Shown one piece after another: positions 14,088 through 31,247 of a DNA stretch of 64,000 nt (position 1 is its first letter; every line of letters starts with the position of its first letter). The DNA comes from an uncultured Clostridia bacterium (lineage in GTDB: Bacteria > Bacillota > Clostridia > Christensenellales > Borkfalkiaceae). The stretch is taken from assembly GCA_930989535.1 (NCBI GenBank), contig CAKNLK010000015.1:1-64000 (forward strand), in the 5' to 3' direction. Made by a program: the position numbers and the translations under genes. Below the pieces are notes generated by a model. It was not told the DNA's origin. It was given only the letters and a program-made list of their open reading frames with translations, and did not search any database.

Positions 14088-14222
14088 TGCGACACATTAT
14101 AATATCCTAAAATCAGGGCATACTTTCGGTAAAAACGTATGCTCTTTCCTGGTTTTAGGGAAATGTGTCGCAACATGAAGAGATGCGTTTTTCGATGCGT
14201 CTCTTATAGGGACGCATTTTTT
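14088..14222 (+). ncRNA. Structured small RNA or leader, copy C
   Basis: The transcript folds by eye into an outer helix (14089-14098 with 14162-14171, 10 bp), a 5' bulge starting ATAAT, and an inner helix (14106-14117 with 14148-14159, 12 bp). The apex is a small hairpin (CATAC 14119-14123 with GTATG 14137-14141), followed by CTCTT, which can pair with AAGAG at 14178-14182 as a pseudoknot. It ends with a terminator (ATGCGTC 14195-14201 with GACGCAT 14211-14217, then six T). The same architecture with other arm sequences occurs twice near 31 kb. It ends 23 bases before the lipoprotein ATG, so it may be a terminator-controlled leader or an independent RNA. Class not recognised. Confidence 0.75.
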
Positions 14223-14244
14223 GTTAATAATAAAGGAGATTATT

Positions 14245-16329
14245 ATGAAAACTAAATTTTTGTCCATGGTTCTCATACTAATATTTTTTATCAGTGCTTG
14301 TGTTGGTTGTCAAAATTCTAATAACAAAAATGATAACATTATTGATAATAGTACCGAGCAAGATAAGTTTGCTATACTAAACGACTCTTATTTAACAATG
14401 GATTTGATTAATGCGTTAAATGAAATCAATGTTGATGAGACAAAGATAACTTCATTTGAAAAACTTGAAGATTGGGTTGCAGGACCCAAATATAGTTTTA
14501 CATATGCAGATAAAATAAAGTTAATTGTTTATTGTAATTTAAATTCAACAGTTGAATCTATCAATTATAATGACGAAAAAATTTATTACAGAGGATTTGA
14601 GTCCTATAATATCAATAACTATATTTATCAATCATCCCTATTGGATGCATTGATACCTTATACTCAAAATATCGTTAAATCATATTTAAGCTATCCTTCT
14701 ACAGCTAAATTCCCTTTAGTTAGCAGTGAATGGGCAGTATCTCGGTATAATAATCTTTATTATTTGGAAAGTTGGGTTAAAGCTTCAAATGCCTTTGGGA
14801 TTGAAGATAAAATAAATTTTATAACGGGTGTTTACATAGATCAAAACACTAATTATAAAACCATCTATTTCAAAATTGATGGCAATATAAAACTTGATTT
14901 AACAGAACAATATCAACCATCTGAACAACGGAAGCAAGTTACTCCTAAATATCCAGGTAAAGATATTATAGAATCCAAAGGTATAAATCTAAAATATGGA
15001 CAATTAGGTCAATACGGTGAAGAAAAAATTATAGATGGTGTTTCTTATATTTATTATTATCTTCCCTATGGCACATACAATGTTGTGAACAATGGAAATT
15101 CAGGTATTATCTATGTTGAAAGTGATGAAATGTATCAAAACGAAGAAGGATATTGGGAAAATGTTGATACAGAAATTTACACATTTAAAACAGGAAGCTA
15201 TGGTAATAGTCAAACGATAAGCATACCCGAAAAATATCACATAGAATTATCTATGTATACTAATGTTTCTTTTATAAAGGTATCAGTAGATGATAATACC
15301 GATGATGATGAAACAACTGATGATGAATGTGAACACATATTGGATAGTTATTGTGTTTGTATAAAATGCAAAAAAGCGTTTCATCAAATCGGAGAAGATT
15401 TTCAATGTATCCGATGTAAACAAGGTTACTTACATATTGAAAATAACTATATTTATACAGGTAGTTATCCACAATCAGAAGTTACAGATGAATTAATTTT
15501 AGATTCGCTTAACAAATTGGTTGCCACACATTACCCCATAATAGAAAAAGATTGGGTATCATATGGTTACTTAAGTTATCAAAACAAAGAGCTAGTAAAT
15601 TTAGGCGATTATATGTATTATATTGATATTGAATATAATTATAATAAATATAGAGGGGTATATTTAGGAAATTATCGCAGACCTTATCAACAATATAATA
15701 AGTATGAAACAAAAAAAATTTATTGGTTTAAGTATGAGCCAATAAAGTGGAAAATTATAGAAAAAACAAACGATAAAGCTTTATTGGTAAGTGATGTTAT
15801 CATAGATTCTCAAGAATTTAATACAACAACTTTGTCTAAGGAAATTGAAGGTAAAACTATTTATTCAAATAATTGGGAATATAGCTCTATACGTAACTGG
15901 CTTAATAATAATTTTTTTGAAACTGCATTTGATTCCCTACAACAAGAACGAATTAAAAGCAAAATATTAGATAATAAAACAACTGGTGGAATATATAGAA
16001 AAAATATAAGTTATCCTCCTTATGAGCCATATTATGATTCCACTAATAAATATGCCAGTTGTCAAAATAATACAGAAGATAAAATTTTTCTTTTATCTAG
16101 AAAGGATGTTTATGATATATTTAATAGTAGCGAAGATTTGATTAAAAATAAAACGGATTATTCTATTATTCAAGGTGAAGCAGAAAATGGAGGATGGATG
16201 TTACGTTCCCCGTGTTTTTATGAGGAAAATTATATAGCATTTCCATGTTTAGAAGTTAGTCGATGGTATGCCCGTGAAATTACTGGATTGACGGGTGTTG
16301 TGCCTGCAATAGAAATTTCTTTAATTTAA
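14245..16329 (+). CDS. Lipoprotein with C-terminal DUF6273 domain
   Basis: The 694-residue protein starts with a type II signal peptide (MKTKFLSMVLILIFFISACVGC), so it should be lipid-anchored at the cell surface. Residues about 30-340 are unrecognised. A Cys-rich stretch near 365-400 (CEHIL..CVCIKCKK..CIRCKQGY) resembles the CxxC modules of the lipoprotein at 29.6 kb. The C-terminal part (about 490-694) has YSSIRNWLNNNFFETAF and GGWMLRSP, typical of DUF6273 domains. AAAGGAG precedes the ATG. Codon use is strongly AT-rich, unlike all flanking genes, which implies recent transfer. Ligand unknown. Confidence 0.8.
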   Translation: MKTKFLSMVLILIFFISACVGCQNSNNKNDNIIDNSTEQDKFAILNDSYLTMDLINALNEINVDETKITSFEKLEDWVAGPKYSFTYADKIKLIVYCNLNSTVESINYNDEKIYYRGFESYNINNYIYQSSLLDALIPYTQNIVKSYLSYPSTAKFPLVSSEWAVSRYNNLYYLESWVKASNAFGIEDKINFITGVYIDQNTNYKTIYFKIDGNIKLDLTEQYQPSEQRKQVTPKYPGKDIIESKGINLKYGQLGQYGEEKIIDGVSYIYYYLPYGTYNVVNNGNSGIIYVESDEMYQNEEGYWENVDTEIYTFKTGSYGNSQTISIPEKYHIELSMYTNVSFIKVSVDDNTDDDETTDDECEHILDSYCVCIKCKKAFHQIGEDFQCIRCKQGYLHIENNYIYTGSYPQSEVTDELILDSLNKLVATHYPIIEKDWVSYGYLSYQNKELVNLGDYMYYIDIEYNYNKYRGVYLGNYRRPYQQYNKYETKKIYWFKYEPIKWKIIEKTNDKALLVSDVIIDSQEFNTTTLSKEIEGKTIYSNNWEYSSIRNWLNNNFFETAFDSLQQERIKSKILDNKTTGGIYRKNISYPPYEPYYDSTNKYASCQNNTEDKIFLLSRKDVYDIFNSSEDLIKNKTDYSIIQGEAENGGWMLRSPCFYEENYIAFPCLEVSRWYAREITGLTGVVPAIEISLI

Positions 16330-16362
16330 TGAAAAAGTATTTTACTAATAATATAAATAATA

Positions 16363-16998
16363 ATGATGATGAACAGGCTTGCAATTAAAATTTTTGAACA
16401 AGAAGATTATGCAAAACAATTTATCGACGGCCATATTTATTTTAGTGCAGCTGGACGATTTAATAATTTTACGGATACTCAACGAAAATACGATGAAGGA
16501 GCGATTTTAATTAACGATCAACCAATATGGATCGATGGCCATGAGTTATTTATTCCATATATGTTTAGTTATGAGGAGATTAAGCAAGTACCTATTTTTT
16601 GTTGTACATTATTGGATAAAAGCAATACTATATTTTTTGATAATAATATACGTTACAATATTCCTAAAGAACATCATGATTTAGGTAAATTTGCCGTTAT
16701 TTTTGATTTAGAGTGTTTAATAAAAAAAATTAAATTAGTTCTACAACCCTTTAATGCAGGTATCATAGCTAAGAAAATTAAATATATAAGTTTTAATTCT
16801 TTAAATGATAAAAATTATAAACAAATAAAAACCCCCTATGATTTATTGTTTTTACATGACATTCTTAATGGCAATGAAAAACAAAATGAATTTAGAATAA
16901 CGATCACTAATAGAGTTATTGATAATGGACATAAAGATGCTAGAGTTAATATAGGACCGCATTGGGGGTGGACATCAAAATGTATTCATATTGAATAA
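16363..16998 (+). CDS. Hypothetical protein in the AT-rich cassette
   Basis: A 211-residue soluble protein with no signal peptide or membrane segment. The N-terminal pattern IKIFEQEDYAKQFIDGHIYF followed by FNNFTDTQRKYDEGA loosely recalls DUF2971-like or phage-defence-associated proteins, but I cannot assign a family. Three ATG codons in a row open the frame and no clear ribosome site is present, so coupling to the upstream lipoprotein (33-base gap) is plausible. It shares the AT-rich composition of that gene and is followed by the right-edge hairpin. Confidence 0.6.
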   Translation: MMMNRLAIKIFEQEDYAKQFIDGHIYFSAAGRFNNFTDTQRKYDEGAILINDQPIWIDGHELFIPYMFSYEEIKQVPIFCCTLLDKSNTIFFDNNIRYNIPKEHHDLGKFAVIFDLECLIKKIKLVLQPFNAGIIAKKIKYISFNSLNDKNYKQIKTPYDLLFLHDILNGNEKQNEFRITITNRVIDNGHKDARVNIGPHWGWTSKCIHIE

Positions 16999-17002
16999 AA
17001 AC

Positions 17003-17034
17003 AAAGGGCTTGCGGTTATCCGCAAGCCCTTTTG
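17003..17034. terminator. Right-edge hairpin of the AT-rich cassette
   Basis: Arms AAAGGGCTTGCGG and CCGCAAGCCCTTTT. Composition changes to GC-rich immediately after it, and the truncated glycoside hydrolase lies next on the other strand. Confidence 0.8.
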
Positions 17035-17085
17035 CCGTTGTTCAAGGTTTATGATATTCGGCTCAACCTTTCTGAAATTCACATA

Positions 17086-17850
17086 TTAGGCGGTGTCTTC
17101 CCCGATGTCGTAAAACAGCGCGGGATAATACACCGCGGGCGACTCCCCGTATTTCTGCTCGAACCGCTCGTTGAACTTTTCCGTCCACATCCTGCCTTCC
17201 GCGCCGTAAAATTGCGGCTCGTCGTAGAAGGCGCTGTCAATCACGTTGCCGAAATATTCGGAAAAGTGCCTGTAATACACTTCGTGCGTGCAATCGATGA
17301 ATTTCTGCACCGCCTCCGCGCTCAGATAATCGACATGATTCCAGCCGGAATCGCGCAGAACAAAGCACAGTACAATCCAATTTTCCGCGGGGGCTTCCCA
17401 TTCCAGCCGCCCCTCCGCCGCGAAGGAAGACAAGTCGATTCGCTCCGTACCCTTCATGCCGACGAGCGCCATCACCTTTCCGTCCTGCGGCAGAGCGAGG
17501 GAAAAGCGCTTCCCCTCGGCGGTGTATTCCTCCATATCCAGCCGCTTCGCGCAGGCCTCCGGGTGCTCCCTTTGGAGAATGCCGCCCGCCCAGCCGCTCG
17601 GAAACCACCACTCGTCGTAGAGGCAGATTTTTAAACCGAGGCGCTTCGCCTCCCGCAGCACGAACCCGTACAGGCGCAGATACTCTTCGCCCATGTAGTC
17701 CAGCTTGCAGGCGTCGTACGGCAAGATGCCGAACCCGGCATACTTATCCTGCCGGGCGCAGTTTTCCATAACCTCGCGAATACTCTCCTTCGTCGGTTTT
17801 TCGTTCCAAAACCAGAGAGGGCGCGGATAATATTTTTTGTTCGCTTCCAT
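17086..17850 (-). pseudogene. Glycoside hydrolase, GH106-like, truncated at its 3' end
   Basis: The 254-residue frame begins MEANKKYYPRPLWFWNEKPT and contains REAKRLGLKICLYDEWWFPSGWAGG, which resembles the start of the TIM-barrel region of GH106-type alpha-L-rhamnosidase-like enzymes; these normally exceed 800 residues. The frame stops at DIGEDTA, right where sequence changes to the AT-rich cassette, so about two thirds of the protein is missing. The start at 17850 follows AAAAGGAGCAAAAAG. It lies 60 bases after the isomerase gene on the same strand, consistent with a sugar-use operon. I infer that it is broken by the cassette insertion or an associated deletion. Confidence 0.65.
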
Positions 17851-17910
17851 ATCTTTTTGCTCCTTTTCGGGAAAATCCCTCCCTTTGGTTGTTTGCAGGG
17901 CCAACCGGAA

Positions 17911-19386
17911 TCAAAGGATTACATATTGGATGTTCAGCAATTTTGCGACCTTTTCGAACAGCTTCGCGTTCTTGCCGACCGACATCGCAAAATGGTGCGT
18001 GGGCGCCTCGCGAAACCATTTTTCCATATACGTATCGGGATCTACGGTAAATCGGACGGGCGTCTGCGTGTTTCCGATTTGCATGATTTCCCCGTCCGTC
18101 GCCACGCCCTCGCTGATGATGAGCTTGAGCTTTCCGTCCACCGTCTGCGTCAGGCCGAGGTTGGTCACGTCGCCGTGCTTCACCTTTGCCTCCACCGAGA
18201 TGCCCGAGCCGCGCTTGCCGTGGTACAGCCCCATCTCGCGCAGAATTGGTTTCCCGTCCGCAATCGCGATATGGAAGGGCCCGTCGTGCCCCAAGAGGAT
18301 GGTGCCGTCCACGTAGTCGGTCGTAACGATTTCGCAGAAGCTGCCACCCACGCCCAGCGAGTCGCAGATTTTCATTGCGACGGCGGTCTTCAAATCCCCC
18401 TCGCCCGCGCAGGGCACGTGGTTCGCCGTCAGGAGCGAAAACCCGACGATAAACCCTTCCTGCAGCTGCTCGTATTCGCTGTTGTTCATGCCGTGGTAAT
18501 AGTATGCAAGCCCGCCGAGCGAGAATTTATCCACGAGTTTCTGCTCCGCCGCGGCGACCTTTGCCGACCAATTCAGCTGCTCCTCGCTCGGCCTCTTCGC
18601 CAGGGGCTCTGCGGGCGAATCGCCGCTGATATAGAACAAATCCTTGATTTTGCGGCGCTGTTCGCGGATATCCTCCTCCGTGACGGTATCGAACACGCTC
18701 TTCAAATCGCACATCTCCAGCACTTCCACGTGAATGCCGCTCTGCCCCGTGAGCATGGTGAAATCGCTGTACAAATCGAGCATGCCCGAATAGGTATTGC
18801 CCAAAAAGCCGAAGCGGGTATTCTGCAGGGTACGCACGGCGCCCGCCGCCCTGACCCACTGCTCCGCCTCCTGCCAGGCGCGAATCGCTTCGGGCGCGTC
18901 CGCCGTGTTTTCGTCCGTCAAAGACATATACGGCGTCTCCGAAAGCCCCAACAGTCCGCTGATGACCTCGTATTCGATGCCGCAGCGGTTGAATGCGTTG
19001 CTGATTTCGGGAATTACGCACGCGTTGCAATGCGCCAGCCATTCGCCCGTCGTCGTCTTTTCGTAATTGACGCGGCGGCAGGGCTGCAAATTCAAAATAA
19101 TCGTCTTTGCCTTGCAAATCCTGTGTACGGGAACAATCGCCGCGCTGGTGGCGTACGTCGCCCCGTGCAGGAAGATGATGTCCACGTTGTTCGCGTTGAA
19201 GTACTCGCCGCACTCCTTCGCCTTCTGCTCTGAATCCACCAGGCCGAAATTGTACACCTCCGCCCCGAACCCGGCAACCTTTTCCGCGATGAACGCATTG
19301 TACATCTTCATGCGCTTTTCAAGCTCGGGGAACTGCCCCCAATACGTGTGCAGCCCCACGCTGTAGATACCGACTCTCGCTTTCAT
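17911..19386 (-). CDS. L-fucose/L-arabinose isomerase family protein
   Basis: The 491-residue protein starts MKARVGIYSVGLHTYWGQFP, as in the distant AraA-like branch of the L-fucose/L-arabinose isomerase family that interconverts aldoses and ketoses with a divalent metal. Length fits. Visible conserved blocks include GFLGNTYSGMLDLYSDF, PCAGEGDLKTAVAMKI and GPFHIAIADGKPIL. The start has AAAGGAG upstream. It is divergent from an AraC-type regulator and upstream of a truncated rhamnosidase-like gene, so it belongs to a plant-polysaccharide sugar pathway. The precise sugar is not clear. Confidence 0.82.
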   Translation of the reverse strand: MKARVGIYSVGLHTYWGQFPELEKRMKMYNAFIAEKVAGFGAEVYNFGLVDSEQKAKECGEYFNANNVDIIFLHGATYATSAAIVPVHRICKAKTIILNLQPCRRVNYEKTTTGEWLAHCNACVIPEISNAFNRCGIEYEVISGLLGLSETPYMSLTDENTADAPEAIRAWQEAEQWVRAAGAVRTLQNTRFGFLGNTYSGMLDLYSDFTMLTGQSGIHVEVLEMCDLKSVFDTVTEEDIREQRRKIKDLFYISGDSPAEPLAKRPSEEQLNWSAKVAAAEQKLVDKFSLGGLAYYYHGMNNSEYEQLQEGFIVGFSLLTANHVPCAGEGDLKTAVAMKICDSLGVGGSFCEIVTTDYVDGTILLGHDGPFHIAIADGKPILREMGLYHGKRGSGISVEAKVKHGDVTNLGLTQTVDGKLKLIISEGVATDGEIMQIGNTQTPVRFTVDPDTYMEKWFREAPTHHFAMSVGKNAKLFEKVAKLLNIQYVIL

Positions 19387-19475
19387 ACCAATTGCTCCTT
19401 TGCATTGTTTTTTTCCATTATACGATATTTTCAGCGGGTTTTCAAGTTCGATTTTTGATTAAAAATATAGTTTTA

Positions 19476-19504
19476 TTGACTATTCGCAAAAGCTGTGTTA
19501 TAAT
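19476..19504 (+). promoter_or_regulatory. Promoter of the AraC-type gene (possibly leaderless)
   Basis: TTGACT and TATAAT with a 17-base spacer. The ATG begins 7 bases after the -10 box, so the expected transcript starts at or next to the initiation codon. Confidence 0.75.
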
Positions 19505-19510
19505 GCGGCC

Positions 19511-20392
19511 ATGAGCGAATTATTTGAAAATCTGAGCAATTCCTGGACGGCGGCTTCGGAGCGGAATTTCGTCACGCCGCTCAACGAATTGAAAAACTTT
19601 TTGTTTTACGTGCAGGAAGTGGGCGTTTTTTCCACCTATCCGAACTATTCCGCCGAGCGCATGGGGTTGAACTCCTTTTTAATCCTGCATACCGCGGGCG
19701 GAACGGGCAACCTGCTCTACGGCGGAAGAACGTATGTATTAAACGCCGGCGACGTGTTTTTTATCGACTGCACCGAAAAACATAAATATTTTAACGCGGG
19801 CGGCGAAAATTGGGAGTTCGAGTGGGTGCACTTCAACGGGCCGAACGCGCAGGCGTGCTTCCATTACTTTTTGGCGCAGAACCAGGGCGTTGCGGCGAGA
19901 ACGCAGTCAGACTCCGTCCGCAGGCTCCTGCTCCGCCTGAACCGCATCAACAAGGCGCCCTCCGCGCAGGCGGACATCCTGTCTTTCCGCATCCTGTCGC
20001 AGATTATCTCCGAACTGTTCCTGCTCAAAGCCGCGCCCGCCTACACGAAAAACGAGATACCCGAAGTTATCCTGGACATTCTCAACGAAATCGACCGCTC
20101 CTTCTGCTCCCGCCTCTCCCTGGAATCCCTCGCGAAAAAATTTTCCGTCAACCCCTACGTCCTGTCGAGGAATTTCAAAAAATACGTCGGGCTGGGGCTG
20201 AAGACGTACATCATTCAAAAGCGCATCTCCTACGCCAAGGAGCTGCTGCGGTTCACCGACAAGCCCGTTTCGGAAATTGCGGAAACGCTCTGCTACGAGA
20301 ACGACGAACACTTCATCGCGCTGTTCAAAAGCTACGAGCACCTCACGCCCCTGTCCTTCCGCAAAAAGTGGCAGTCCAATCAGAATCGCTAA
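19511..20392 (+). CDS. AraC family transcriptional regulator
   Basis: The 293-residue protein has an N-terminal cupin-like sugar-sensing domain (about 40-115: YGGRTYVLNAGDVFFIDCTEKH) and a C-terminal double HTH (about 190-290). The second helix region ISEIAETLCYENDEHFIALFKSYEHLTPLSFRKKW is diagnostic for AraC/XylS. It is divergent from the isomerase gene and probably activates it in response to the substrate sugar. No ribosome site precedes the ATG, and the -10 box ends 6 bases upstream, which suggests a leaderless mRNA; an internal start at residue 51 would cut the sensor domain. Confidence 0.88.
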   Translation: MSELFENLSNSWTAASERNFVTPLNELKNFLFYVQEVGVFSTYPNYSAERMGLNSFLILHTAGGTGNLLYGGRTYVLNAGDVFFIDCTEKHKYFNAGGENWEFEWVHFNGPNAQACFHYFLAQNQGVAARTQSDSVRRLLLRLNRINKAPSAQADILSFRILSQIISELFLLKAAPAYTKNEIPEVILDILNEIDRSFCSRLSLESLAKKFSVNPYVLSRNFKKYVGLGLKTYIIQKRISYAKELLRFTDKPVSEIAETLCYENDEHFIALFKSYEHLTPLSFRKKWQSNQNR

Positions 20393-20408
20393 TCCCTTTT
20401 CGCCGCGC

Positions 20409-20446
20409 AAAAAGCGCCGGAACCTCTGTCGGTTCCGGCGCTTTTT
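20409..20446. terminator. Terminator after the AraC-type gene
   Basis: AAAAAGCGCCGGAACC and GGTTCCGGCGCTTTTT arms with a TCTGTC loop. A second hairpin (AGAGCCATGCC-like arms, 20,597-20,637) follows for the opposite strand. Nothing else is clear in 20,447-20,653. Confidence 0.85.
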
Positions 20447-20653
20447 GTTCAGCCATCCGTGCGGACGCCCTTAAATACCGGCTGGCGCATAGAGCCGCGC
20501 GCCGTCTCCTGCATGAAGTGCGCCGTGCCGACGAGCGCGGGTGCGGCCGTCCCTGCCGAAACGGCACAAATATCCGCAAGCGTATGCAAAAAAGGAGAGC
20601 CATGCCGCCCAGCAAGGACAGTATGGCTCTTTTCAGCGTTATTATGGATTTGC

Positions 20654-21646
20654 TCAGCGGAGGGTACCCATCGCGCCGTTCTGCCGCAGCGCGCCCATGA
20701 CGGCGTGCGGGGTGTACGGTTCGTCGATATACGCGACGTCCTCGGGCGTGAGTTTTACATCGAACGCGCCCGCCGCGTCGTCGAGATATTTCGCCTTCGT
20801 CGCGCCGACGATAGGCGAAGCGACGCCCTTGGCGAAATGCCAGGCAAAGGTGACGGCCGTCATCGAAGTTTCGTACTTTTCCGCAAGGTCTGCGATGCGC
20901 GCGGCAATCGCCTTGTCCGCCTCCTCGGTGGAATCGTACTTGCCGCGGGCGACCTTGTCCGTCTTACTGCGCAGGGTATCCGCCTCCCAATTCGGGCGGG
21001 CGCACCTGCCCGAGGCGAGCGGGCTGTACGGCGTGAGCGCCACGTTCATTTGCTTACAAACGGGGATGAGCTCGCGCTCGTCCTCGCGGTACAGCGGATT
21101 GTAGTGGTTCTGCATGGAGACGAAAGGGGTAAACCCGTTGTCGCGCGCACAAATCTGCATGTTGTGGAACTGGTAGCCGTACATCGCGGAAGCGCCGAGC
21201 GCGCGCACCTTGCCCGCCTTTACGAGCCCGTGCAGCGCCTCCATCGTCTCCTCAATCGGCGTGCCGTAGTCGAAGCGGTGGATGATATACAAATCGAGAT
21301 AGTCGGTGCCCAGCCGCCGGAGCGTGCCGTCGATTTCGCGGTTGATTGCCCCTTTCGAGAGGTTTCCGTCGTTGAAATACACCTTCGACGCGAGCACGAC
21401 CTTATCGCGCGGAACGTTGTTTTTGATTGCGCGGCCGAGGTACTCCTCGCTCGTGCCCGCCGAATAGCAGTTGGCCGTATCGAAGAAATTGATGCCCAAA
21501 TCGAGCGCGTGTTTGATTATTTTTTCGCTTTCTTCGGGGTTGAGCGTCCACGCGTGCATCTGGCTGGCGGTGTCGCCGAAGCTCATGCACCCCAGGCACA
21601 GGCGGGAAACCTCGATGCCGCTGTTTCCGAGTTTCGTATATTCCAT
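20654..21646 (-). CDS. Aldo/keto reductase
   Basis: The 330-residue NADPH-dependent oxidoreductase has the AKR signatures: FFDTANCYSAGTSEEYLGRAI with catalytic Asp and Tyr, the Lys in VVLASKV, the His in YIIHRFD, and the cofactor-binding block SPIVGATKAKYLDDA. It reduces aldehydes or ketones in the cytoplasm. It is last in a same-strand cluster flavodoxin - CMD protein - cupin - AKR with small spacers (10 bases after the cupin), under a LysR regulator. This grouping is common in Clostridia for carbonyl or quinone detoxification, which is inference here. Confidence 0.9.
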   Translation of the reverse strand: MEYTKLGNSGIEVSRLCLGCMSFGDTASQMHAWTLNPEESEKIIKHALDLGINFFDTANCYSAGTSEEYLGRAIKNNVPRDKVVLASKVYFNDGNLSKGAINREIDGTLRRLGTDYLDLYIIHRFDYGTPIEETMEALHGLVKAGKVRALGASAMYGYQFHNMQICARDNGFTPFVSMQNHYNPLYREDERELIPVCKQMNVALTPYSPLASGRCARPNWEADTLRSKTDKVARGKYDSTEEADKAIAARIADLAEKYETSMTAVTFAWHFAKGVASPIVGATKAKYLDDAAGAFDVKLTPEDVAYIDEPYTPHAVMGALRQNGAMGTLR

Positions 21647-21656
21647 AAAAACCTCC

Positions 21657-22873: not shown

Positions 22874-22884
22874 CTTATCCTCCG

Positions 22885-23450: not shown

Positions 23451-23468
23451 TTTTGTTTTTCGGGCATT

Positions 23469-23489: not shown

Positions 23490-23496
23490 TAAAAAA

Positions 23497-23523: not shown

Positions 23524-23537
23524 GATTTATTGCGATA

Positions 23538-24428
23538 TTAATTTTTTTCGGCGAATTGGCCGCGCAGAATGGCAGCAAATTCCTCGAGATAGTAGTTGGA
23601 ACGCTTCTTCTGCCAAAAGGCGCAGTAGGTGCGCACGATGCGCCCGCCGTCCGCGCGGCGCACTTCCAGCCGCACGAGGGGCGGCGCGGCCGTCGGCTTG
23701 GCGCTCGCCACCGGCAGAAAGCCGCGGCCGCTCATCGCCAGCAAACGCGCTTCGTCCAGGCTCGCGGCAAAGAGAAACTGCTTTCCGATGCCGAGATATT
23801 CGCCGTAATATTTTTTCTCCGTCTCCTCCTCCGCCCTGTCGGAAACGACGATGCAGGGATATTTTTCCAGCTCGTCGTTCGTAACGATTCCCCTGCCCGC
23901 GAGCGGGTGAGCTGCGGCGACGTCGATATAGGCGGGGCTTTGGCTGAGGATAAAATTTTCGCACTCGTCGGAAAAGACGCGCCTTTGGTCACTCAGCAAA
24001 AAGTTCGCCTCGCCGCTCAAAATCGCGCGGTACAGCTCCTCGTGCGTGCCCTTGAATACGCTGACGACAACCTCGGGATAGGTTGCCGAAAACGCCACGA
24101 CGGCGCGCTGCAATTCCGGCCCGTCGTAGCCGGAAAGATAGCCGATATTCAGGTTCAGCTCGCTGTCCGAGCCGATGCGCACCGTCTCCTCGCGCATCTC
24201 GTCCATGTCCGCGAGGATGGCGCGGCTGCGGCGGGCAAAGTACTCGCCCGCGGGGGTGAGGCGGAATTTTCGGCCTTCCCGCTCGATAAGTTTTACGCCC
24301 AGCTCCGCTTCGAGCGAGGCGATTTGCTGGGAAACCGCCGATTGGGAGATAAAGCACCGTTCCGCCGCCTCGGTAAAGCTGCCGCAGTCGGCGATGGCAA
24401 CAAAATATTTCATCTGCCGAAACAGCAT
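23538..24428 (-). CDS. LysR family transcriptional regulator
   Basis: The 296-residue protein has the N-terminal HTH (RQMKYFVAIADCGSFTEAAERCFISQSAVSQQI) and a substrate-binding domain starting near residue 90 (LNLNIGYLSGYDGPELQRAV). The ATG at 24428 is used because GGGGAGGGG lies 9 bases upstream and the first codon of the longer frame is a TTG inside that spacer. It is upstream of, and on the same strand as, the flavodoxin - AKR cluster, and a LysR-type palindrome lies at the right place before that operon. Co-inducer unknown. Confidence 0.9.
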   Translation of the reverse strand: MLFRQMKYFVAIADCGSFTEAAERCFISQSAVSQQIASLEAELGVKLIEREGRKFRLTPAGEYFARRSRAILADMDEMREETVRIGSDSELNLNIGYLSGYDGPELQRAVVAFSATYPEVVVSVFKGTHEELYRAILSGEANFLLSDQRRVFSDECENFILSQSPAYIDVAAAHPLAGRGIVTNDELEKYPCIVVSDRAEEETEKKYYGEYLGIGKQFLFAASLDEARLLAMSGRGFLPVASAKPTAAPPLVRLEVRRADGGRIVRTYCAFWQKKRSNYYLEEFAAILRGQFAEKN

Positions 24429-24536
24429 AGGCAAGCCCCTCCCCTTTTTTATTTATACGGTATCGGACAGTACAGTTTTAATGCGTTTTGCATGTAGTTC
24501 CATCATGCATCGGTGCTCTTTCCCTAATCCAAACAG

Positions 24537-25970
24537 CTACTTCCTCTCCAGGCATACGAGGGTTTCTATCCACTTCGTTTGAGGAAACATGTCGAAAGGT
24601 TGTATTGATATGACAGAATAAAATCCTTCCTGCCAGCCCGAGGCAAAGTTCGGGTTCTTTTTGAGTTCACTCCCCTCCTCAACGAGCGCGCCCGTGAGAA
24701 TACCGACGTCGCGCGCCATCGTGGCGGGGTTGCAGGAAATCATCGCGACGCGCGGAATGCCCGAATGGAGAATCGCGCGCAATGTGCCGCGGTCGACGCC
24801 CTTGCGCGGCGGGTCGACGACCAAAAAGGTCTCCTTGGCGATAGCCTCGCTCAAAACTTCGGGCAGCTTGTCCTCGACGCGGCCGCAGATATTGAACATG
24901 CGCCCCTCCAATTTATTCGGCTCGACGAGCGCGTCCGCACATGCCGATGCTTCCGACACCGCCTCGATGCCGTACGCCTTTCCGATTTGCCGCGCCAGGA
25001 GCGCAGTGAGGATACCGCCGCCGCTGTACGCGTCGATAGCGACGGCCGCGCCGCTCTCCACGCCGTAACGCGCAACGCGCTCGTACAGCTTGCGGCATAC
25101 GCCGCGGTTGACCTGCAAAAAGGTGTTCGGCCCCGCCTCGAAGCGCACGCCGCACTCGTGCCCGACGAAGCGCGGCTCGCCGTACAAGAGGCGGAAATCC
25201 TTGCCGAATACGCCGTTGCCGTCCCCCTTGTTCACATTCTGCCAGAGGGAAAAACTCTTGAATTTTTCGCCCAAAAGGGCAATCAGCCTGTCCGAACGCG
25301 GCAGGCAGTCCTTTGCGGTGACGGCGGTGACGATGAAGTTCCCCTCCACCTCGCGCACGACGATATGGCGCAGAACGCCGCTGCCGTCCGCCTCGCTGTA
25401 TCCGCGCACGCCGCATTTTTCCATATACGCGGAAAAGGCGGAAACAACCTGTTCCGCCCAATACGGGTGAATGGGGCAGCGCTGTACGGGCACGATGCGG
25501 TGGCTGCGTTCGGCGTAAAATCCGATTACGTTCTCGCCGTTTTTGTCCACGCCCACGGGAATCTGCAATTTATTGCGGTACTCGTATTGGAAATCGCTCT
25601 TGACGGCGAGCGGCACTTCCATATCGATGCCGGCAATCTTGCGCAGGGCGTCCTTGACCGTTTTGCTCTTGAGTTTGAGCTGCGCGCCGTAGCGCAGGTG
25701 CTGCAGCTGGCAGCCGCCGCACTTGGTGAACAGCGGGCAGCGCGGCCGCACCCGTTCGTCGGCGGGGGTGAGTATTTCCAGCGCCTTCGCGTAACCGATG
25801 CGGTCTTTGACCTTTAACGCCTTGAACTTGACCTTTTCGCCCACGGCGGTAAAGGGCGCAAAAAACACCGTTTCGCCCATATGTACGATTCCTTCGCCGT
25901 TGCTCCCGAGCGACTCGACCAACCCCGTAAACTCGCCGTTCTTTTCCACGATCTGCATATCTTCCGTCAT
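24537..25970 (-). CDS. rlmD: 23S rRNA (uracil-5-)-methyltransferase, RumA/RlmD family
   Basis: The 477-residue protein has an N-terminal TRAM domain (about 8-65), a 4Fe-4S cluster motif CPLFTKCGGCQLQH (about 80-93 plus a further Cys upstream), and a SAM-dependent methyltransferase domain with DAYSGGGILT. The TrmA-family catalytic core has DPPRKGVD and the nucleophile Cys in ISCNPATMARD. It methylates a uridine in 23S rRNA; which position cannot be read from sequence alone. Full length for the family. The ATG at 25970 has AAGGAAG upstream. Confidence 0.9.
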   Translation of the reverse strand: MTEDMQIVEKNGEFTGLVESLGSNGEGIVHMGETVFFAPFTAVGEKVKFKALKVKDRIGYAKALEILTPADERVRPRCPLFTKCGGCQLQHLRYGAQLKLKSKTVKDALRKIAGIDMEVPLAVKSDFQYEYRNKLQIPVGVDKNGENVIGFYAERSHRIVPVQRCPIHPYWAEQVVSAFSAYMEKCGVRGYSEADGSGVLRHIVVREVEGNFIVTAVTAKDCLPRSDRLIALLGEKFKSFSLWQNVNKGDGNGVFGKDFRLLYGEPRFVGHECGVRFEAGPNTFLQVNRGVCRKLYERVARYGVESGAAVAIDAYSGGGILTALLARQIGKAYGIEAVSEASACADALVEPNKLEGRMFNICGRVEDKLPEVLSEAIAKETFLVVDPPRKGVDRGTLRAILHSGIPRVAMISCNPATMARDVGILTGALVEEGSELKKNPNFASGWQEGFYSVISIQPFDMFPQTKWIETLVCLERK

Positions 25971-26013
25971 CTTCCTTTCTCCGCTATTCTCTCTCGTTTT
26001 TCACTTTCTCCCG

Positions 26014-26739
26014 CTATGCCTGCCCGTCTTTGCCCGTCTCGTCCTCCTCGGAATGTGTATCCTGCGCTTTATCCTTATCCGCGCACACGCCGCCCGGCTC
26101 CGCGTTCTCCTTCCCTTCCTCCGGCGCAACGTCCGCATCGTCCGCAAACGGATCGAAACCGTCGGCTCTCTGCGCGGGCGCGCCGCCCGCCTGCCTGCCG
26201 CCCCTGCCCCGCTCGATTTTGCCGACATAATAGTCTGCAAACTTCTGGAAGCGGAACATCACCCAATCGTACAGCAGGAACACGAGCGTTCCCAGCACGA
26301 CGACGATGGGATAGATCCACGCGGCCGACCAGCCGAAGGGCATCGTGATTTCGACGTTGAAGGTAAACAGCAGTGCGACGGTGGCGCACAGCATTCCGTC
26401 AAACCAAATTGCCTTGATTGACCAGGCAACCCACTTTTTGACGCTGTATTTCCTCTGCAGGGAATTGACGAGCGGGTGCAGGCCGAAAAAGGCAACAAAC
26501 GGAAACAGCCTGTAAAAATAGGCGATTCCGCCGAATGCGAGGCACAACAGGCAGGTTGCCATATATGCCAAAAAGCCGCCCAGCCGAAAATTCTTGGCGA
26601 GCGGCAGCATGAGCGCGACGGACGCAAATACATACCCCGTGAGTACCAGCACGGGTATGTTGATTCCGAGGCTCATAAAGACAGTGGCGAGTGCGCACGA
26701 CACGGCGGACAGCGCAATCGAAAAAGATTTCCCTCGCAT
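26014..26739 (-). CDS. Integral membrane protein of unknown function
   Basis: The 241-residue protein has about five membrane helices in residues 5-165 (for example ALSAVSCALATVFMSLGI and IYPIVVVLGTLVFLLYDW). A highly charged cytoplasmic tail of about 70 residues, rich in Gly, Asp and Glu, follows. The N-terminal pattern recalls ECF-type substrate-binding membrane proteins, but no motif fixes this. It is downstream of the J-domain gene on the same strand with a 16-base gap. Confidence 0.65.
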   Translation of the reverse strand: MRGKSFSIALSAVSCALATVFMSLGINIPVLVLTGYVFASVALMLPLAKNFRLGGFLAYMATCLLCLAFGGIAYFYRLFPFVAFFGLHPLVNSLQRKYSVKKWVAWSIKAIWFDGMLCATVALLFTFNVEITMPFGWSAAWIYPIVVVLGTLVFLLYDWVMFRFQKFADYYVGKIERGRGGRQAGGAPAQRADGFDPFADDADVAPEEGKENAEPGGVCADKDKAQDTHSEEDETGKDGQA

Positions 26740-26755
26740 AGCCTTGCGCGCCGCT

Positions 26756-27394
26756 CTACCTGCAGTTGCAGCAGGCGTTGAGGCAGCAGTTCAAGAGCAT
26801 ATTGCAAGCGCAACATGTGGCGCACTGCTCGCAGAAGCCGCCGCCCATCTGCTGCTGTTCGTCGTACCCCGGCTGCGGCCCGCTCTGCGCATAGCCGCCC
26901 TGCGACTGCTGCTGCGGGTTTTCCGCCTGCTTTTTATCGTACTCGATTTTTTCCTTCAATTTATTGTACGCGGTACGGTACTTTTCGTTGGAGGAGTCCA
27001 TCTGAATGGCAATCTCGAGCTGTTTTTTGCTCTCGTTCATCCAGTTCTTTTTATAAAACACGACCGATTGCAGGTAATGCCATTCGGCGGGGCGCTCGTT
27101 GAACTCGTCGAGCACGGCCTGCGCCTCGTTGATTTTGCCCGCACGGATGTACTCGTCCACCTTCGCGTAAGACGAGCCCGCGTTTTCGGCGGAGTGCTTT
27201 TCGCTCCGCTCAATCATGATTTCGTTGTACGCGACGTCGATGCGGTTGAGCATGCGCGCCGCTTCGTTGCCCGCCTCCCCTTCGAGGAAACGCTCTTCCG
27301 AATATTTCTTTTTCAGTTCCTCGTAACGCGCCTTGATTTCCTCGTCGGTCGCGGTCTCGGAAACGCCCAAGAGTTCGTAATATTGTTTATTCAT
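26756..27394 (-). CDS. J-domain-like protein with Cys-rich C-terminus
   Basis: The 212-residue protein opens with a DnaJ-like domain (MNKQYYELLGVSETATDEEIKARYEELKKKY), but the HPD tripeptide needed to stimulate Hsp70 is not present. A TPR-like helical middle (about 75-145) includes KVDEYIRAGKINEAQAVLDE. A Gln/Gly-rich linker leads to a tail with ten Cys (FCEQCATCCACNMLLNCCLN). Similar proteins occur widely in Clostridia, and metal binding by the tail is inference. Start 27394 chosen at the domain start. The DUF5685 gene lies 45 bases upstream on the same strand. Confidence 0.75.
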   Translation of the reverse strand: MNKQYYELLGVSETATDEEIKARYEELKKKYSEERFLEGEAGNEAARMLNRIDVAYNEIMIERSEKHSAENAGSSYAKVDEYIRAGKINEAQAVLDEFNERPAEWHYLQSVVFYKKNWMNESKKQLEIAIQMDSSNEKYRTAYNKLKEKIEYDKKQAENPQQQSQGGYAQSGPQPGYDEQQQMGGGFCEQCATCCACNMLLNCCLNACCNCR

Positions 27395-27439
27395 GGTCTT
27401 TCCTTCGGCTGTCAGCCTTTTACGCTCGTTTGCGCCCAA

Positions 27440-28315
27440 TCAGCGCAGGCGCGCCTTTTCGGGCCGGATTTTATCTTTGCATCCGCACTTCACCCGCTGT
27501 GTGGCGGCGGGCAATCCGCGCAGGATGATGTTGTCCGTCAAATCGTGATTGAAATAAAAGCGGATATTTTTGAGGTTCTCCGCATTGGTCGCGAACACGC
27601 TCTTAAACACGAAATCCGCTTCCTCGCCGTTCTTTGCCAGCATCTCCGCGCGCGTTTTCTCCCCGAACGCCTCGTAAAAGGGGTTGTAGTTACCCTTCTT
27701 CACGTCCTTGTCGTAGTCGTCGAGCGCGTCGATGAGGTACACCCACTTGCCGATGCCGTAGCACAGCCCGCGCGTGGCTTCGGTGGCGTATTCGCCGAGG
27801 CAGTAGTCGGAAAGCTCCGCAATCATGCTGCCGAACGGGTCGGCGGCCATGTCGAGGCTGGAACATTTCTTCTTTTCCAAAGCGGCGAGCGCCTGCATGT
27901 TGCGGCGGATAATCCTGCCGATTTCGGGGTGCAGGGCGGAAGCCCTTTTCATCCCCTTTTTGAAGAGGGAGCGCTTGAACCTGCCCTTCTTTTCGTCCTC
28001 CACGTCGTCGCAGAGTTTATAGTAAGTGAACGCGGTGTTGAGGCAGGCGACGGCGCGGGTGATGTCGTCGTCCGCCGCCATCGGGCGCTTGACGACGGGG
28101 TTCAGGGCGCAGCGCCTGTTCTCGATTTTAACATCCGTATTCATTATATTGTGCAGAAGGGCGGACAAAAATGTCATGTCATACGAAAGCCCGAGCCGCG
28201 CCCGCTGGCCGCAGGAAGCGCCGATGCTCTTGCACAGTCCGCAGTACAGCGCCTTGTACAGAACGCCGTCCTTCACGTACATATGGGGAATATCCGGCTG
28301 TATATACCCGAACAA
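27440..28315 (-). CDS. DUF5685 family protein
   Basis: The 291-residue protein begins FGYIQPDIPHMYVKDGVLYKALYCGLCKSIG, the hallmark of the DUF5685 family, and includes the acidic motif LIDALDDYDKDVKKGNYNPF. The family is widespread in Clostridia and of unknown function; the DxxDD-like motif faintly recalls prenyl-synthase-like helical folds, which is speculation. The initiation codon appears to be TTG at 28315, with GGGGGAG 9 bases upstream that overlaps the trpS stop region, so translation is coupled to trpS. Confidence 0.8.
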   Translation of the reverse strand: MFGYIQPDIPHMYVKDGVLYKALYCGLCKSIGASCGQRARLGLSYDMTFLSALLHNIMNTDVKIENRRCALNPVVKRPMAADDDITRAVACLNTAFTYYKLCDDVEDEKKGRFKRSLFKKGMKRASALHPEIGRIIRRNMQALAALEKKKCSSLDMAADPFGSMIAELSDYCLGEYATEATRGLCYGIGKWVYLIDALDDYDKDVKKGNYNPFYEAFGEKTRAEMLAKNGEEADFVFKSVFATNAENLKNIRFYFNHDLTDNIILRGLPAATQRVKCGCKDKIRPEKARLR

Positions 28316-28321
28316 CTTTCT

Positions 28322-29335
28322 TTACTCCCCCGAATAGAATCCGACCTTGCGGTACACTTTGGAGAGAGTTCTCCGCGCCATGCGCGCGGCGCTCTCCGCG
28401 CCCCTCTGCATGATGCCGTTGAGATATGCCTTATCCGCAAGCAGCTTTGCCCGCTCCGCCTGGATGGGCGCGAGCGCGTCGGCGACCGCTTCCCCTACCG
28501 CGAGTTTGAAATCGCCGTAGCCCTTGCCCTCGAACTCCTTTTCCGCCTCCGCGATGCTCTTGCCCGTGAACGCGTGATAGATGGTCAGCAGGTTGGATAC
28601 GCCCGGCTTTTCCTCGGGTGCGTAGCGGATAACGCTGTCGCTGTCCGTCACCGCGCGCTTGAATTTGCGGATAACGGTGTCCTTATCGTCGGACATGGTG
28701 ACAAAGCCGTTGGGGTTTTCGTCCGACTTGCTCATCTTTTTGGAAGGATCGGCAAGGCTCATGACGCGCGCGCCGCTGTCCTTCGGGATATACCCGTCGG
28801 GCACGGTGAAAGTAGCGCCGTAGCGGTTGTTGAAGCGGATGGCCAAATCGCGCGTCAGCTCCAGGTGCTGTTTCTGGTCTGCGCCGACGGGCACGAGCGC
28901 CGCCTGGTACAGGAGAATGTCCGACGCCATGAGCACGGGGTAGTCCATGAGCCCCATATTGACGTTTTCGGCATGCTTGGCGCTCTTGTCCTTGAACTGC
29001 GTCATGCGCGAAAGTTCGCCGGGGTATGCGATGGTGTTGAGCACCCACGTCAGCTCGCAGTGCGCGGGCACGTGCGACTGCACGAACAGCACGCACTTTT
29101 CGGGGTTGATGCCGCAGGCGATGAACAGCGCCATCAGCTCGAGCGTATTTCTGCGCAGCTGCGCCGCCTCCTGCCTGACGGTGATGGCGTGCAAATCGGC
29201 GACGGCATAGATGCACTCGTATTCGTCCTGCAACTTTGCGAAATTGCGGATGGCGCCGATATAGTTGCCGATGGTGACCGAGCCGCTCGGCTGAACGGCG
29301 GAGAACAGTTTTTTCTTTGCTGCGGATTCTTCCAT
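28322..29335 (-). CDS. trpS: Tryptophanyl-tRNA synthetase
   Basis: The 337-residue class I synthetase charges tRNA-Trp. The HIGH-like motif is in PSGSVTIGNYIGAIRN, the KMSKS loop is intact (DPSKKMSKSDENP), and DLHAIT and GADQKQHLELTRDLA are conserved TrpRS blocks. Length is normal. The promoter at 29,381-29,409 gives a leader of about 40 bases, with no T-box visible. The DUF5685 gene follows after 6 bases. Confidence 0.95.
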   Translation of the reverse strand: MEESAAKKKLFSAVQPSGSVTIGNYIGAIRNFAKLQDEYECIYAVADLHAITVRQEAAQLRRNTLELMALFIACGINPEKCVLFVQSHVPAHCELTWVLNTIAYPGELSRMTQFKDKSAKHAENVNMGLMDYPVLMASDILLYQAALVPVGADQKQHLELTRDLAIRFNNRYGATFTVPDGYIPKDSGARVMSLADPSKKMSKSDENPNGFVTMSDDKDTVIRKFKRAVTDSDSVIRYAPEEKPGVSNLLTIYHAFTGKSIAEAEKEFEGKGYGDFKLAVGEAVADALAPIQAERAKLLADKAYLNGIMQRGAESAARMARRTLSKVYRKVGFYSGE

Positions 29336-29380
29336 AAACTCTCTTACACCCTTTAATCAATTTAAGAATATTCGTAGAAA

Positions 29381-29409
29381 AGTATACCATACTGCGCAAT
29401 AAAAAGCAA
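29381..29409 (-). promoter_or_regulatory. Promoter of trpS
   Basis: TTGCTT (29409-29404) and TATACT (29386-29381) on the minus strand, 17-base spacer. The remaining intergenic DNA to 29,592 has a GCGTCCGCGC hairpin that may end the lipoprotein transcript. Confidence 0.7.
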
Positions 29410-29592
29410 ACGAGTTTCCGCGTTATTTCCCAAAATTGCCAAAATTAACGGTATTTTAATAAAACCGCTACAATTTTCAGCAAAATGTCACGGAAAAGGC
29501 GCCCGCGCGGATATGCGCGGACGCCCTGCTATTTTATGCGTTTCTCTTTGTTTTTTGCGTGCGCACGGCGGGGAAATTTTCGCTTTTCCCGC

Positions 29593-30894
29593 TTATGCCG
29601 CGGGTTGCCCCGCCAAATCTACGTTTATCTGATACTTGCTGAAATCAATCTCGGCTTTACCATTTAATTTGAACTCGTCTTTTTGTATATACTCGACAAG
29701 TTCGTTGTCTTGAATATTAGGGGTAATAACGACAAACCGTCTAACGCCAAAATTATTGATAAGTACAACAGAAAAGAAACGCCCTTGACCGTAATCGTTA
29801 TCAAGTTGCGAGCCAATATCCGTATAAAGCCACATTGTTTCGGGGGCGGAGTAGTCGAAATCGGGGTCAAGTTTATCCGCCACCGCCTTTATAAATTCGT
29901 CTTTGTCGCCTTGTGTATCGGGGGCGTAAATGTACGAATACTTTTGCGTTATATCTTTATAACTTTCTTCAAATTCAATCGATGCGATAATTGTTTCATT
30001 ATATAAATCTGCTACACTTAAAGGTTCGGGAAAGGAAATATCCCAAACCATATAAGCGAGATTGTTTGTACGTTTATCATTGTAATGAATAGAAAATTGA
30101 GCGGTGTCAATTATATCAATATTTTTATTACTAAAATCAAACTTGTAACTTATTGTTTCAGCATTTTTAGTTATATAATTACTTTTAATGTAATTGTAAA
30201 TTATTTCAAAATTTTCTTGCACTACTTTCTGATAATATTCCGCGCGGGCGAGTTCCACGGCGGTGGCGGTTGTTTCGTCGGGGAAAAGCTCGTCGAGCGT
30301 GGCGGGCGCGGTATCTTCCGCAGGGTTGTACTTATAGCCGCATTCCGTGCAGGTCAAGCCGCTCCCGAAATCGTGGTCGGCTTTCTCCGTTTTTTTGCCG
30401 CATACTTCGCACTCTTTCCAATGCCCGCCGTTATCTCTTTCCCACTCGCCGTATGTATGGTTATCCGTTACGGGAATGACCGTGTCCGCTTGCGTTATTT
30501 CCGTTTTGCCCTCGCCGTCCGAAAACAGTTTTTCACAAACCGTACAAGTCCAGTATTCCGTAACGCCCTCGTCTTTACAGGTCGCGGGCTTGCCGTTCGT
30601 CTTTGTCAGCGTATGCCCCTTTGCCGCAATCGTTACCGCCGCAAGCGTGGTTTCGGTTTTGCCGTTTTTATCCGAAAACAGTTTGCCGCAGTCGGTGCAT
30701 TCCCAATAGGCAAGGTTGCCGTTTTCGGTGCAGGTCGCGTCCTTTGCCTTATGCTCCGTGAGCGTGTGTTCCGTGGTAGTCGTGCCGCCGTTCTCGTTGT
30801 TGTTATCGTTTCCGCCTCCGCAGGCGGCAAGCCCGAACACAAAGCATACCGCCAACCCCGCCACCGCGATAGCCGCTAAAACCCTTTGTTTCAT
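29593..30894 (-). CDS. Cys-rich repeat lipoprotein
   Basis: The 433-residue protein starts MKQRVLAAIAVAGLAVCF with lipobox LAACGGG, so it should be lipid-anchored outside the membrane. Residues about 40-165 hold three related modules, with YWECTDCGKLFSD, YWTCTVCEKLFSD and KECEVCGKKTEK, each with a CxxC pair and a HTLT/HTYG element. The rest (about 180-433) is an unrecognised soluble domain. The start at 30894 follows GGAGGCAGAGGAA; 21 codons of upstream frame lie in the terminator of a structured RNA and are not coding. The arrangement RNA - terminator - lipoprotein is the same as at 14 kb. Confidence 0.8.
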   Translation of the reverse strand: MKQRVLAAIAVAGLAVCFVFGLAACGGGNDNNNENGGTTTTEHTLTEHKAKDATCTENGNLAYWECTDCGKLFSDKNGKTETTLAAVTIAAKGHTLTKTNGKPATCKDEGVTEYWTCTVCEKLFSDGEGKTEITQADTVIPVTDNHTYGEWERDNGGHWKECEVCGKKTEKADHDFGSGLTCTECGYKYNPAEDTAPATLDELFPDETTATAVELARAEYYQKVVQENFEIIYNYIKSNYITKNAETISYKFDFSNKNIDIIDTAQFSIHYNDKRTNNLAYMVWDISFPEPLSVADLYNETIIASIEFEESYKDITQKYSYIYAPDTQGDKDEFIKAVADKLDPDFDYSAPETMWLYTDIGSQLDNDYGQGRFFSVVLINNFGVRRFVVITPNIQDNELVEYIQKDEFKLNGKAEIDFSKYQINVDLAGQPAA

Positions 30895-30927
30895 TTCCTC
30901 TGCCTCCGAAATTTTTTTCGCAAGGGC

Positions 30928-31070
30928 AAAAAAAGGCGCGCCTTCAACCGAAGACACGCCCCTGCATCAGTATCTCCGATTGATGTCACTCAAACCATTT
31001 GCACAATGGAAAATAGAGATACGATATGCCTATTCGTACCCATTGTGCAAATTATTCAGTTTGAGTGACG
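30928..31070 (-). ncRNA. Structured small RNA or leader, copy B
   Basis: The minus-strand transcript begins with the outer helix (31069-31059 with 30995-30985, 11 bp). A 5' bulge, a long inner helix (ATTTGCACAATGG with its complement, 13 bp), a small TACGA/TCGTA hairpin and the single-stranded TCTCTATTTT follow. GTATCTC in the apex (31022-31016) is complementary to GAGATAC in the linker (30976-30970), a possible pseudoknot. The terminator hairpin 30960-30935 with seven T ends it 33 bases before the lipoprotein start. The apex matches copy A almost exactly, while both helices differ but remain fully paired. Confidence 0.8.
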
Positions 31071-31075
31071 GTAAC

Positions 31076-31104
31076 AGTATACCACAATCGGAAAAGAAAA
31101 GCAA
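31076..31104 (-). promoter_or_regulatory. Promoter of structured RNA copy B
   Basis: TTGCTT (31104-31099) and TATACT (31081-31076), 17-base spacer. The predicted +1 is the first base of the outer helix. Confidence 0.8.
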
Positions 31105-31107
31105 CAA

Positions 31108-31247
31108 CAAAAAAGCGTGCCTTCAACCGAAGACACGCCCTGCACCTGTATCTCCGATTGTTGGCACAAAACTTCCCTTATAACGGAAAATAGAGATACG
31201 AAATGCCTGTTCGTACCCGTTATAAGGAATTATGAAGTTTTGTGCCG
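31108..31247 (-). ncRNA. Structured small RNA or leader, copy A
   Basis: This lies in tandem with copy B, on the minus strand. Outer helix 31246-31234 with 31175-31163 (13 bp, GGCACAAAACTTC and its complement), 5' bulge ATAATT, inner helix CCTTATAACGG with CCGTTATAAGG (11 bp). The apex has hairpin TACGAA/TTCGTA followed by TCTCTATTTT. GTATCTC (31199-31193) can pair with GAGATAC (31154-31148). The terminator GCGTG..CACGC (31138-31115) with eight T is nearly identical to that of copy B. Helix sequences share nothing with copy B apart from pairing, which argues for a conserved RNA fold. Confidence 0.8.

Follow-up and report, generated by a model that had tools for sequence, protein, structure and literature searches.

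Probable pseudoknot-gated attenuator, and probable riboswitch, in front of mainly lipoprotein, BspA-type and accessory genes of Clostridia

What kind of RNA is encoded three times, each time behind a promoter of its own, in a 64,000-nucleotide (nt) stretch of DNA from an uncultured Clostridia bacterium (assembly GCA_930989535.1, contig CAKNLK010000015.1, positions 1 to 64,000; hereafter the window), and what does it do in front of lipoprotein genes? The copies lie at 14088-14223 on the plus strand (copy 1), 31107-31247 on the minus strand (copy 2) and 30928-31070 on the minus strand (copy 3), and a sequence check found all three where the original prediction, made from the bare sequence, had placed them. 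The same check found the sigma-A promoter described there, with TATACT and a 17-base spacer, at every copy: TTGAAT 14054-14059 and TATACT 14077-14082 for copy 1 (14054-14082, +), TTGCTT 31281-31276 and TATACT 31258-31253 for copy 2 (31253-31281, -), and TTGCTT 31104-31099 and TATACT 31081-31076 for copy 3 (31076-31104, -). The predicted transcription start fell at the base of the outer helix in each case, as claimed. Fold z scores against shuffled sequences were -8.70, -8.35 and -8.56 for copies 1, 2 and 3, and in no copy did any of the 200 shuffles reach an equally good fold. The reading that we hold with good confidence, based on sequence comparison, is that the leader is a cis-acting 5' transcription attenuator, most likely a riboswitch.

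The first covariance model (R1) was built from copies 2 and 3 only, because MAFFT, when given all three, misaligned the helix arms of copy 1. R1 recovered copy 1 at E = 4.1e-10, so copy 1 is a relative of the other two, and it picked up three more strong copies (C9, C14 and C29) in the genome to which the window belongs. At E ≤ 1, R1 matched 24 of 61 genomes; the genus, represented by 37 genomes, accounted for 21 of the 24, own genome included. At the level of the order, the second model (R2, 61 members) found matches in 115 of 396 genomes at E ≤ 0.01, and at that of the class the third (R3, 101 members) found them in 87 of 391 genomes and 52 of 223 genera at E ≤ 1e-4, the own genome again being counted in both searches. 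Copies 1, 2 and 3 themselves scored E = 7.6e-17, 8.9e-23 and 2.8e-21 with R3. A draw of genomes from the phylum, some of which belong to the same class, served as a false-positive control; R3 at E ≤ 1e-4 matched 0 of its 397 non-own genomes and the own genome alone (1 of 398). Eight candidates were scored per genome in the order, class and phylum searches. With scoring extended to as many as 150 candidates per genome, 12 genomes chosen for many copies gave 5 to 21 matches each at E ≤ 0.01, a few of which were antisense echoes or weak. Named carriers were Candidatus Gallimonas, Candidatus Coproplasma, and uncultured Clostridia and Firmicutes; going by these names, the class searched should be the Clostridia. 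A pattern scan of named genomes gave 50 loci, of which the model confirmed 47; pattern loci in Neomelitea, Tannerella and one Lachnospiraceae metagenome-assembled genome were unconfirmed by the model and were taken as chance.

With up to 21 matches in one genome, the RNA is yet unmatched in Rfam 15. At the gathering score, scans of the window and 20 relative loci returned only three tRNAs and one T-box, all elsewhere. Two regions of the window and two relatives were also scanned permissively, which gave only weak matches below the gathering score (best E 0.0066), none of them credible. The original view of the copies as a structured RNA family of no recognised class therefore gains support, both from the lack of an Rfam 15 match and from many further homologues with heavy covariation.

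For comparisons across the family, 11 antisense overlaps were removed from 232 distinct matches, and 215 distinct tails of at least 40 nt were kept. Four antisense matches were dropped for the promoter counts, leaving 211, of which 210 had enough upstream sequence; the degenerate copy L085 was also dropped from the helix-length and second-pseudoknot sets (210), and the addition of 16 members from outside the order gave 226. The counts for antiterminator duplex score, for the first pseudoknot alone and for downstream open reading frames (ORFs) include the four antisense matches and L085. The order-search matches used (28 as new loci, 98 from the list) were taken mainly best score first, so well-paired members are over-represented.

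Compensatory change between helix arms, which had been read from three copies, was found at all 40 modelled pairs in an alignment of 101 distinct members (A7); each of the 40 showed change on both sides, and 94.6% of cells were standard pairs. The architecture consists of an outer helix, commonly of about 12 base pairs (bp; P1), a 5' bulge often containing AAUA, an inner helix, again commonly of about 12 bp (P2), and an apical hairpin (P3). The AATA claimed for the bulge was present in copies 1 and 3, and the bulge of copy 2 reads CATAAT. Pairing reached 96.6% in P1, 93.9% in P2, 93.8% in P3 and 93.4% in the terminator, which covaries as the fourth helix of the alignment. The alignment was fitted to the structure and the controls used the same alignment; shuffles reached 63% paired cells and slid structures 33-48%, and 0 of 500 shuffles were as high on any of five measures. 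When members were folded singly, 10 to 13 pairs were found for P1 in 148 of 203 and for P2 in 114 of 203. Some of the remaining members had helices fused or divided by the fold parser, so a correlation of P1 and P2 lengths is uninformative. In copy 1 (+), P1 joins 14089-14098 with 14162-14171, P2 joins 14105-14117 with 14148-14160, and the P3 hairpin occupies 14118-14142; all three rest on folding, checked pairs and family covariation.

As is characteristic of riboswitches, a conserved core stands outside the helices. Six bases, scored by letter alone in the 101 members, were conserved at 90-96%: an A in J1/2 (95%), a G (90%) and an A (95%) in the apical loop L3, and, directly behind P1, an A (94%), a C (96%) and a further A (93%), at the point where the tail usually begins A-N-C-A. 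The other bases in J1/2, L3 and after P1 were less conserved. The six would fit a ligand pocket or a protein site. In addition, the 5' arm of P1 reads ACACAA in most members (70-93% per base), though pairing alone permits change, and this hints at recognition of the helix itself.

The promoter is also part of the family unit. Five or six of the six -10 bases matched in 187 of 210 members versus 14 of 197 control stretches; the -10 began 11 nt upstream of RNA base 1 in 162 of the 210, TG immediately preceded it in 181, and a spacer of 17 was the best in 170. At the other end the leader carries an intrinsic terminator, which in the tail folds of the window copies joins 14194-14204 with 14208-14218, followed by a U run (copy 1, 14194-14223, +), 31141-31129 with 31124-31112 (copy 2, 31112-31141, -) and 30963-30950 with 30945-30932 (copy 3, 30932-30963, -).

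What makes this leader look like an attenuator is that its terminator is accompanied by a mutually exclusive antiterminator. In copy 3 the terminator's loop and upper 5' arm, UGUCUUCGGUUGA, have their complement in the strand after P1, UCAAUCGGAGAUA, and the checked pairs join 30983-30971 with 30956-30944 (30944-30983, -). The equivalent pairing joins 14178-14185 with 14198-14205 in copy 1 (+), where pair checking was accompanied by the family test, and 31160-31149 with 31135-31124 in copy 2 (31124-31160, -; pairs checked). Neither this pairing nor the tail-apex pairing described below is contained in the covariance models. Among 215 tails, the mean duplex score with the own partner was 8.9 versus 5.5 with foreign partners, taken from members with at least 3 differences in the 9 positions of the strand, and 68% of tails beat 95% of their foreign partners. 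The duplex energy was -13.2 kcal/mol for own versus -6.7 kcal/mol for cross pairings, with 79% of 224 members in the best 5%. An in-register antiterminator with a score of at least 6 was present in 175 of 213 members; within these 175, at least four standard pair types occurred at eight of the first ten positions, position 0 was C-G almost throughout, and position 8 showed three pair types. In the three window copies the modelled energies were -14.6, -16.2 and -18.0 for the antiterminator hairpin and -16.7, -19.5 and -24.6 for the full tail with its terminator, values that are not far apart.

The same tail is complementary to the 3' arm of P3 and the pyrimidines that follow it (pseudoknot 1, PK1) and to L3 (pseudoknot 2, PK2). 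The energy of tail with apex was -17.7 for own pairs, -12.0 with apices of another loop class and -10.5 with shuffled tails, and the own energy lay in the best 5% for 64%. With loop classes and tail motifs that were defined after inspection of the sequences, an L3 of GUAAAA went with a UUUU tail in 36 of 36 members versus 23 of 190 others, GGCA with UGC in 109 of 142 versus 26 of 84, and GCCAA with a UUGG-like tail in 8 of 22 versus 5 of 204. Copy 1, of the GUAAAA class by eye, can pair its tail (14177-14192, +) with the apical strand 14131-14147 through 16 pairs and one bulged base (by eye; part of this was program-found), with complementarity and duplex energy as the evidence. Copies 2 and 3 belong to the GGCA class. 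For copy 2 (31142-31206, -), sequence and duplex energy suggest PK1 between 31155-31148 and 31199-31192 and PK2 between 31145-31142 and 31206-31203, the program having picked another register than the one read from the sequence, whose pairs were checked; for copy 3 (30964-31029, -), PK1 joins 30977-30970 with 31022-31015 and PK2 joins 30967-30964 with 31029-31026 (program, pairs checked, duplex energy). Antiterminator and apical pairing exclude each other, and apical pairing and terminator are compatible.

We infer that these pairings form and that termination is regulated through them. RNA polymerase would start at the leader's own promoter, and the transcript would fold P1, the 5' bulge, P2 and the hairpin P3 with its conserved L3 G and A. 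If the tail then pairs with L3, the P3 3' arm and the following pyrimidines (PK2 and PK1), the terminator would be left free and transcription would stop; if it pairs instead with the 5' arm and loop of the terminator, polymerase would read into the gene. The default is probably OFF, because the apical strand is made before the partner of the antiterminator; for read-through, something would have to keep the apex, or the bulge, from reaching the tail. As the signal sensed, a small molecule seems likelier to us than a protein or another RNA. Specific mutations for checking this scheme can be taken from the alignment and from the two competing pairings. Neither of the two tail pairings, apical or antiterminator, figured in the original prediction, and nor did the cis-regulatory position before diverse genes or the class-wide spread.

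The position relative to genes is likewise that of an attenuator, namely a 5' leader that is co-directional with and near to a gene. At least 300 nt of downstream sequence were available in 209 cases and an ORF was found in 208, a gene behind tandem copies being counted twice; the median distance from the RNA end to the chosen start codon was 33 nt in these 208. The downstream neighbour was co-directional in 129 and opposite in 20 of 201 examined, and the upstream neighbour was co-directional in 87 and opposite in 58. In the window, copy 1 precedes a predicted lipoprotein gene at 14245-16329 (+; 694 amino acids, aa; C-terminal DUF6273; ORF, Pfam and lipobox), whose ATG at 14245 is preceded by AAGGAG. 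Copies 2 and 3 stand in tandem before a single predicted lipoprotein gene at 29593-30894 (-; 433 aa; ORF and lipobox; no Pfam match at E 0.01). The claim that the copies lie upstream of lipoprotein genes thus stands, and the assignment of one gene to each copy does not, there being two such genes and not three.

Across the family the leader precedes mainly lipoproteins, BspA-type proteins and accessory genes. By simple rules, with no background set scored, a lipobox was found in 106 of 208 downstream proteins and a hydrophobic N-terminus in 142 of 208. Pfam was run on 129 of 161 selected downstream proteins, first cut to 400 aa; among the 25 families listed of 68, there were 35 proteins with BspA-type leucine-rich repeats, 9 with a zinc ribbon and 8 with a Listeria-Bacteroides repeat, and single proteins included a response regulator with a LytTR domain, AraC-type domains, an AAA ATPase and a phosphotransferase. 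Outside the order, where 10 of 25 genes were scanned, genes behind the RNA included an AMP-binding enzyme, a peptidase M23 and BspA repeats, as well as very small proteins without a Pfam match. Proteins that begin with a zinc ribbon (MNKCPNCGTEFEG and similar) recur behind the RNA, at L145, L155, L161, L181, L186 and L210.

Several observations weigh against a riboswitch-like attenuator. The next ORF of at least 100 aa lay beyond 700 nt in 34 of the 201 cases, was absent in 18 and was opposite in 20, and the downstream genes have no common metabolic theme that points to a ligand. An in-register antiterminator was missing from 38 of 213 tails. The association of loop class with tail motif is incomplete (8 of 22 for GCCAA; UGC occurs as well in 13 of the 36 members with GUAAAA), and common ancestry may account for part of it. 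PK1 alone separated own from foreign partners modestly (7.0 vs 5.8, with 17% in the top 5%), and an automatic search for PK2 with its register fixed next to PK1 gave no separation (4.2 vs 3.9; 5% in the top 5%).

One alternative is a small RNA that stands alone, acts in trans or sequesters a protein, has its end at the terminator and lies before genes by chance. Its own promoter and terminator, and the part of copies without a close co-directional gene, would suit it, and so would the second terminator-like hairpin seen by eye after L271, L273 and L275. We consider it unlikely for the family in view of the 33-nt median distance to the start codon, the 129 co-directional versus 20 opposite downstream neighbours, and an antiterminator pairing that would have no purpose there and yet is kept through compensatory changes. 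The alternative of a mobile repeat or transposon end, carrying promoter and hairpin without a regulatory role, draws on the many dispersed copies per genome in the 12 chosen genomes and on the IS200-type transposase gene that adjoins copy 2 (31488-31958, -). The same RNA unit precedes quite different genes, however, and its divergence comes with near-complete compensation and so indicates long selection on the RNA; this alternative is disfavoured and would surprise us greatly.

A protein-responsive attenuator, in which an RNA-binding protein would hold the apical loop or bulge and so free the tail, overlaps with the riboswitch reading, which does not commit itself to one sensed partner. The conserved P1 (ACACAA), L3 and J1/2 could equally well form a protein site or a ligand pocket, and diverse genes would be expected of a global regulon. 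No candidate protein was found, a search that covered CsrA and no other RNA-binding antiterminators, and all 20 carrier genomes chosen for this lacked CsrA; we regard this version as possible, though on the doubtful side. Control by CsrA in particular is disfavoured on that result (0 of 20 carriers, with 3 of 14 control genomes positive). It is very improbable that a small ORF in the tail couples translation to termination as a leader peptide. A motif like a ribosome site before an ATG (GGAG-n-AUG) does occur in the tail of 59 of 142 GGCA-class members, but motif and ATG together were found in 66 of 226 members and in 1 of 36 of the GUAAAA class, and frame lengths vary widely; with the small ORF not conserved, the leader peptide was rejected.

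How does the leader compare with known regulatory RNAs? The fluoride (crcB) and ZTP riboswitches terminate transcription with a pseudoknotted aptamer. Like them, the present RNA is a 5' leader with conserved non-helix bases and a tail strand that is shared by the pseudoknot and the terminator/antiterminator choice; unlike them, it has two long helices of about one turn and precedes mainly surface and accessory genes rather than genes of one pathway. Riboswitches for cyclic di-GMP (c-di-GMP) occur in several copies per genome before genes for secreted and surface proteins, and the present leader resembles them in its several copies before surface-protein genes. It differs in that it has no Rfam match, and GGDEF was found in 11 of 20 chosen carriers and not in 9 of 20 (incomplete assemblies), the negative ones including the window's own genome and two 99%-complete genomes with 12 and 14 matches. 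On these grounds c-di-GMP is disfavoured as the signal. A T-box leader, which is also a leader attenuator, is present in the same organism and in the window itself at 3270-3552 (-; 113.6 bits), but the copies have no T-box match, and no aminoacyl-tRNA synthetase family was among the 25 families listed of 68 in the Pfam scan. Finally, 6S RNA is a long hairpin with a bulge behind a sigma-A promoter, features that the present RNA shares; it is set apart by its many copies per genome, its terminator switch and its cis position. Identity with 6S RNA was rejected, as the window scans gave no match to its Rfam family, RF00013.

The general kind, a leader attenuator resembling a riboswitch, is thus known, and the RNA family is undescribed as far as our searches show. 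No description of the family, of the strand-swapping tail or of the use as a cassette was found in the literature searched, which mostly excluded subscription papers and included the portions covered of PMC11109978, PMC8632094 and PMC7266159. One source, PMC8040213, is a bulk list of 3161 candidates from human microbiomes; the parts of it covered hold no description of motif, regulon or mechanism, and a list of this kind may contain the RNA as an unnamed entry. The family suggests that uncultured gut Clostridia have a level of gene control for which the searches made gave no name. Should the leader prove to be a riboswitch, a general signal is the likely ligand, because the genes share a location, often the cell surface, and not a pathway. 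We also put forward, as a quite possible but tentative extension, that the RNA represents a new and abundant class of Clostridia riboswitch for a signalling compound that is as yet unknown; it would set the repertoire of surface proteins and accessory genes in gut bacteria through its tail, which would alternately invade the apical hairpin of the aptamer and open the terminator, and it would have spread as a self-contained cassette of promoter, aptamer and terminator.

A further element was seen in a subset of members, in which GCCCTGCA after the terminator is complementary to UGCAGGGC before it. The pairing score was at least 7 in 65 of 221 members versus 12.6% of shuffles, and mean scores were 6.1 for own, 5.6 for foreign and 5.4 for shuffled partners. 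A variant has GCCCGCA after the terminator and UGCGGGC just before it. Examples of either element lie at L048:924-935, L056:4984-4996 and L071 just below 6066 (-). The element could reseal the leader after read-through. At L271, L273 and L275, the second terminator-like hairpin follows the RNA directly on its 3' side, and these copies may therefore be free-standing.

More than one copy was present on 11 of 215 locus strands, some of which are the same contig fetched twice. Tandem leader units occur at L051, L039, L058, L040, L038, L178, L233 and L252 and at 30928-31247 of the window, and they have separate promoters in the cases inspected. An origin from phages or plasmids was rejected or appeared weak: blastn of the RNA region of one relative (L275:1456-1700; the window copies were not run) found nothing in phages or plasmids, and one of two pattern scans of viral contigs gave a single contig. 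Just upstream of the tandem copies 2 and 3, the transposase encoded at 31488-31958 (-) is of the Y1 type (Pfam Y1_Tnp, E 5.7e-40), and G+C-rich palindromes are visible by eye between its gene and copy 2.

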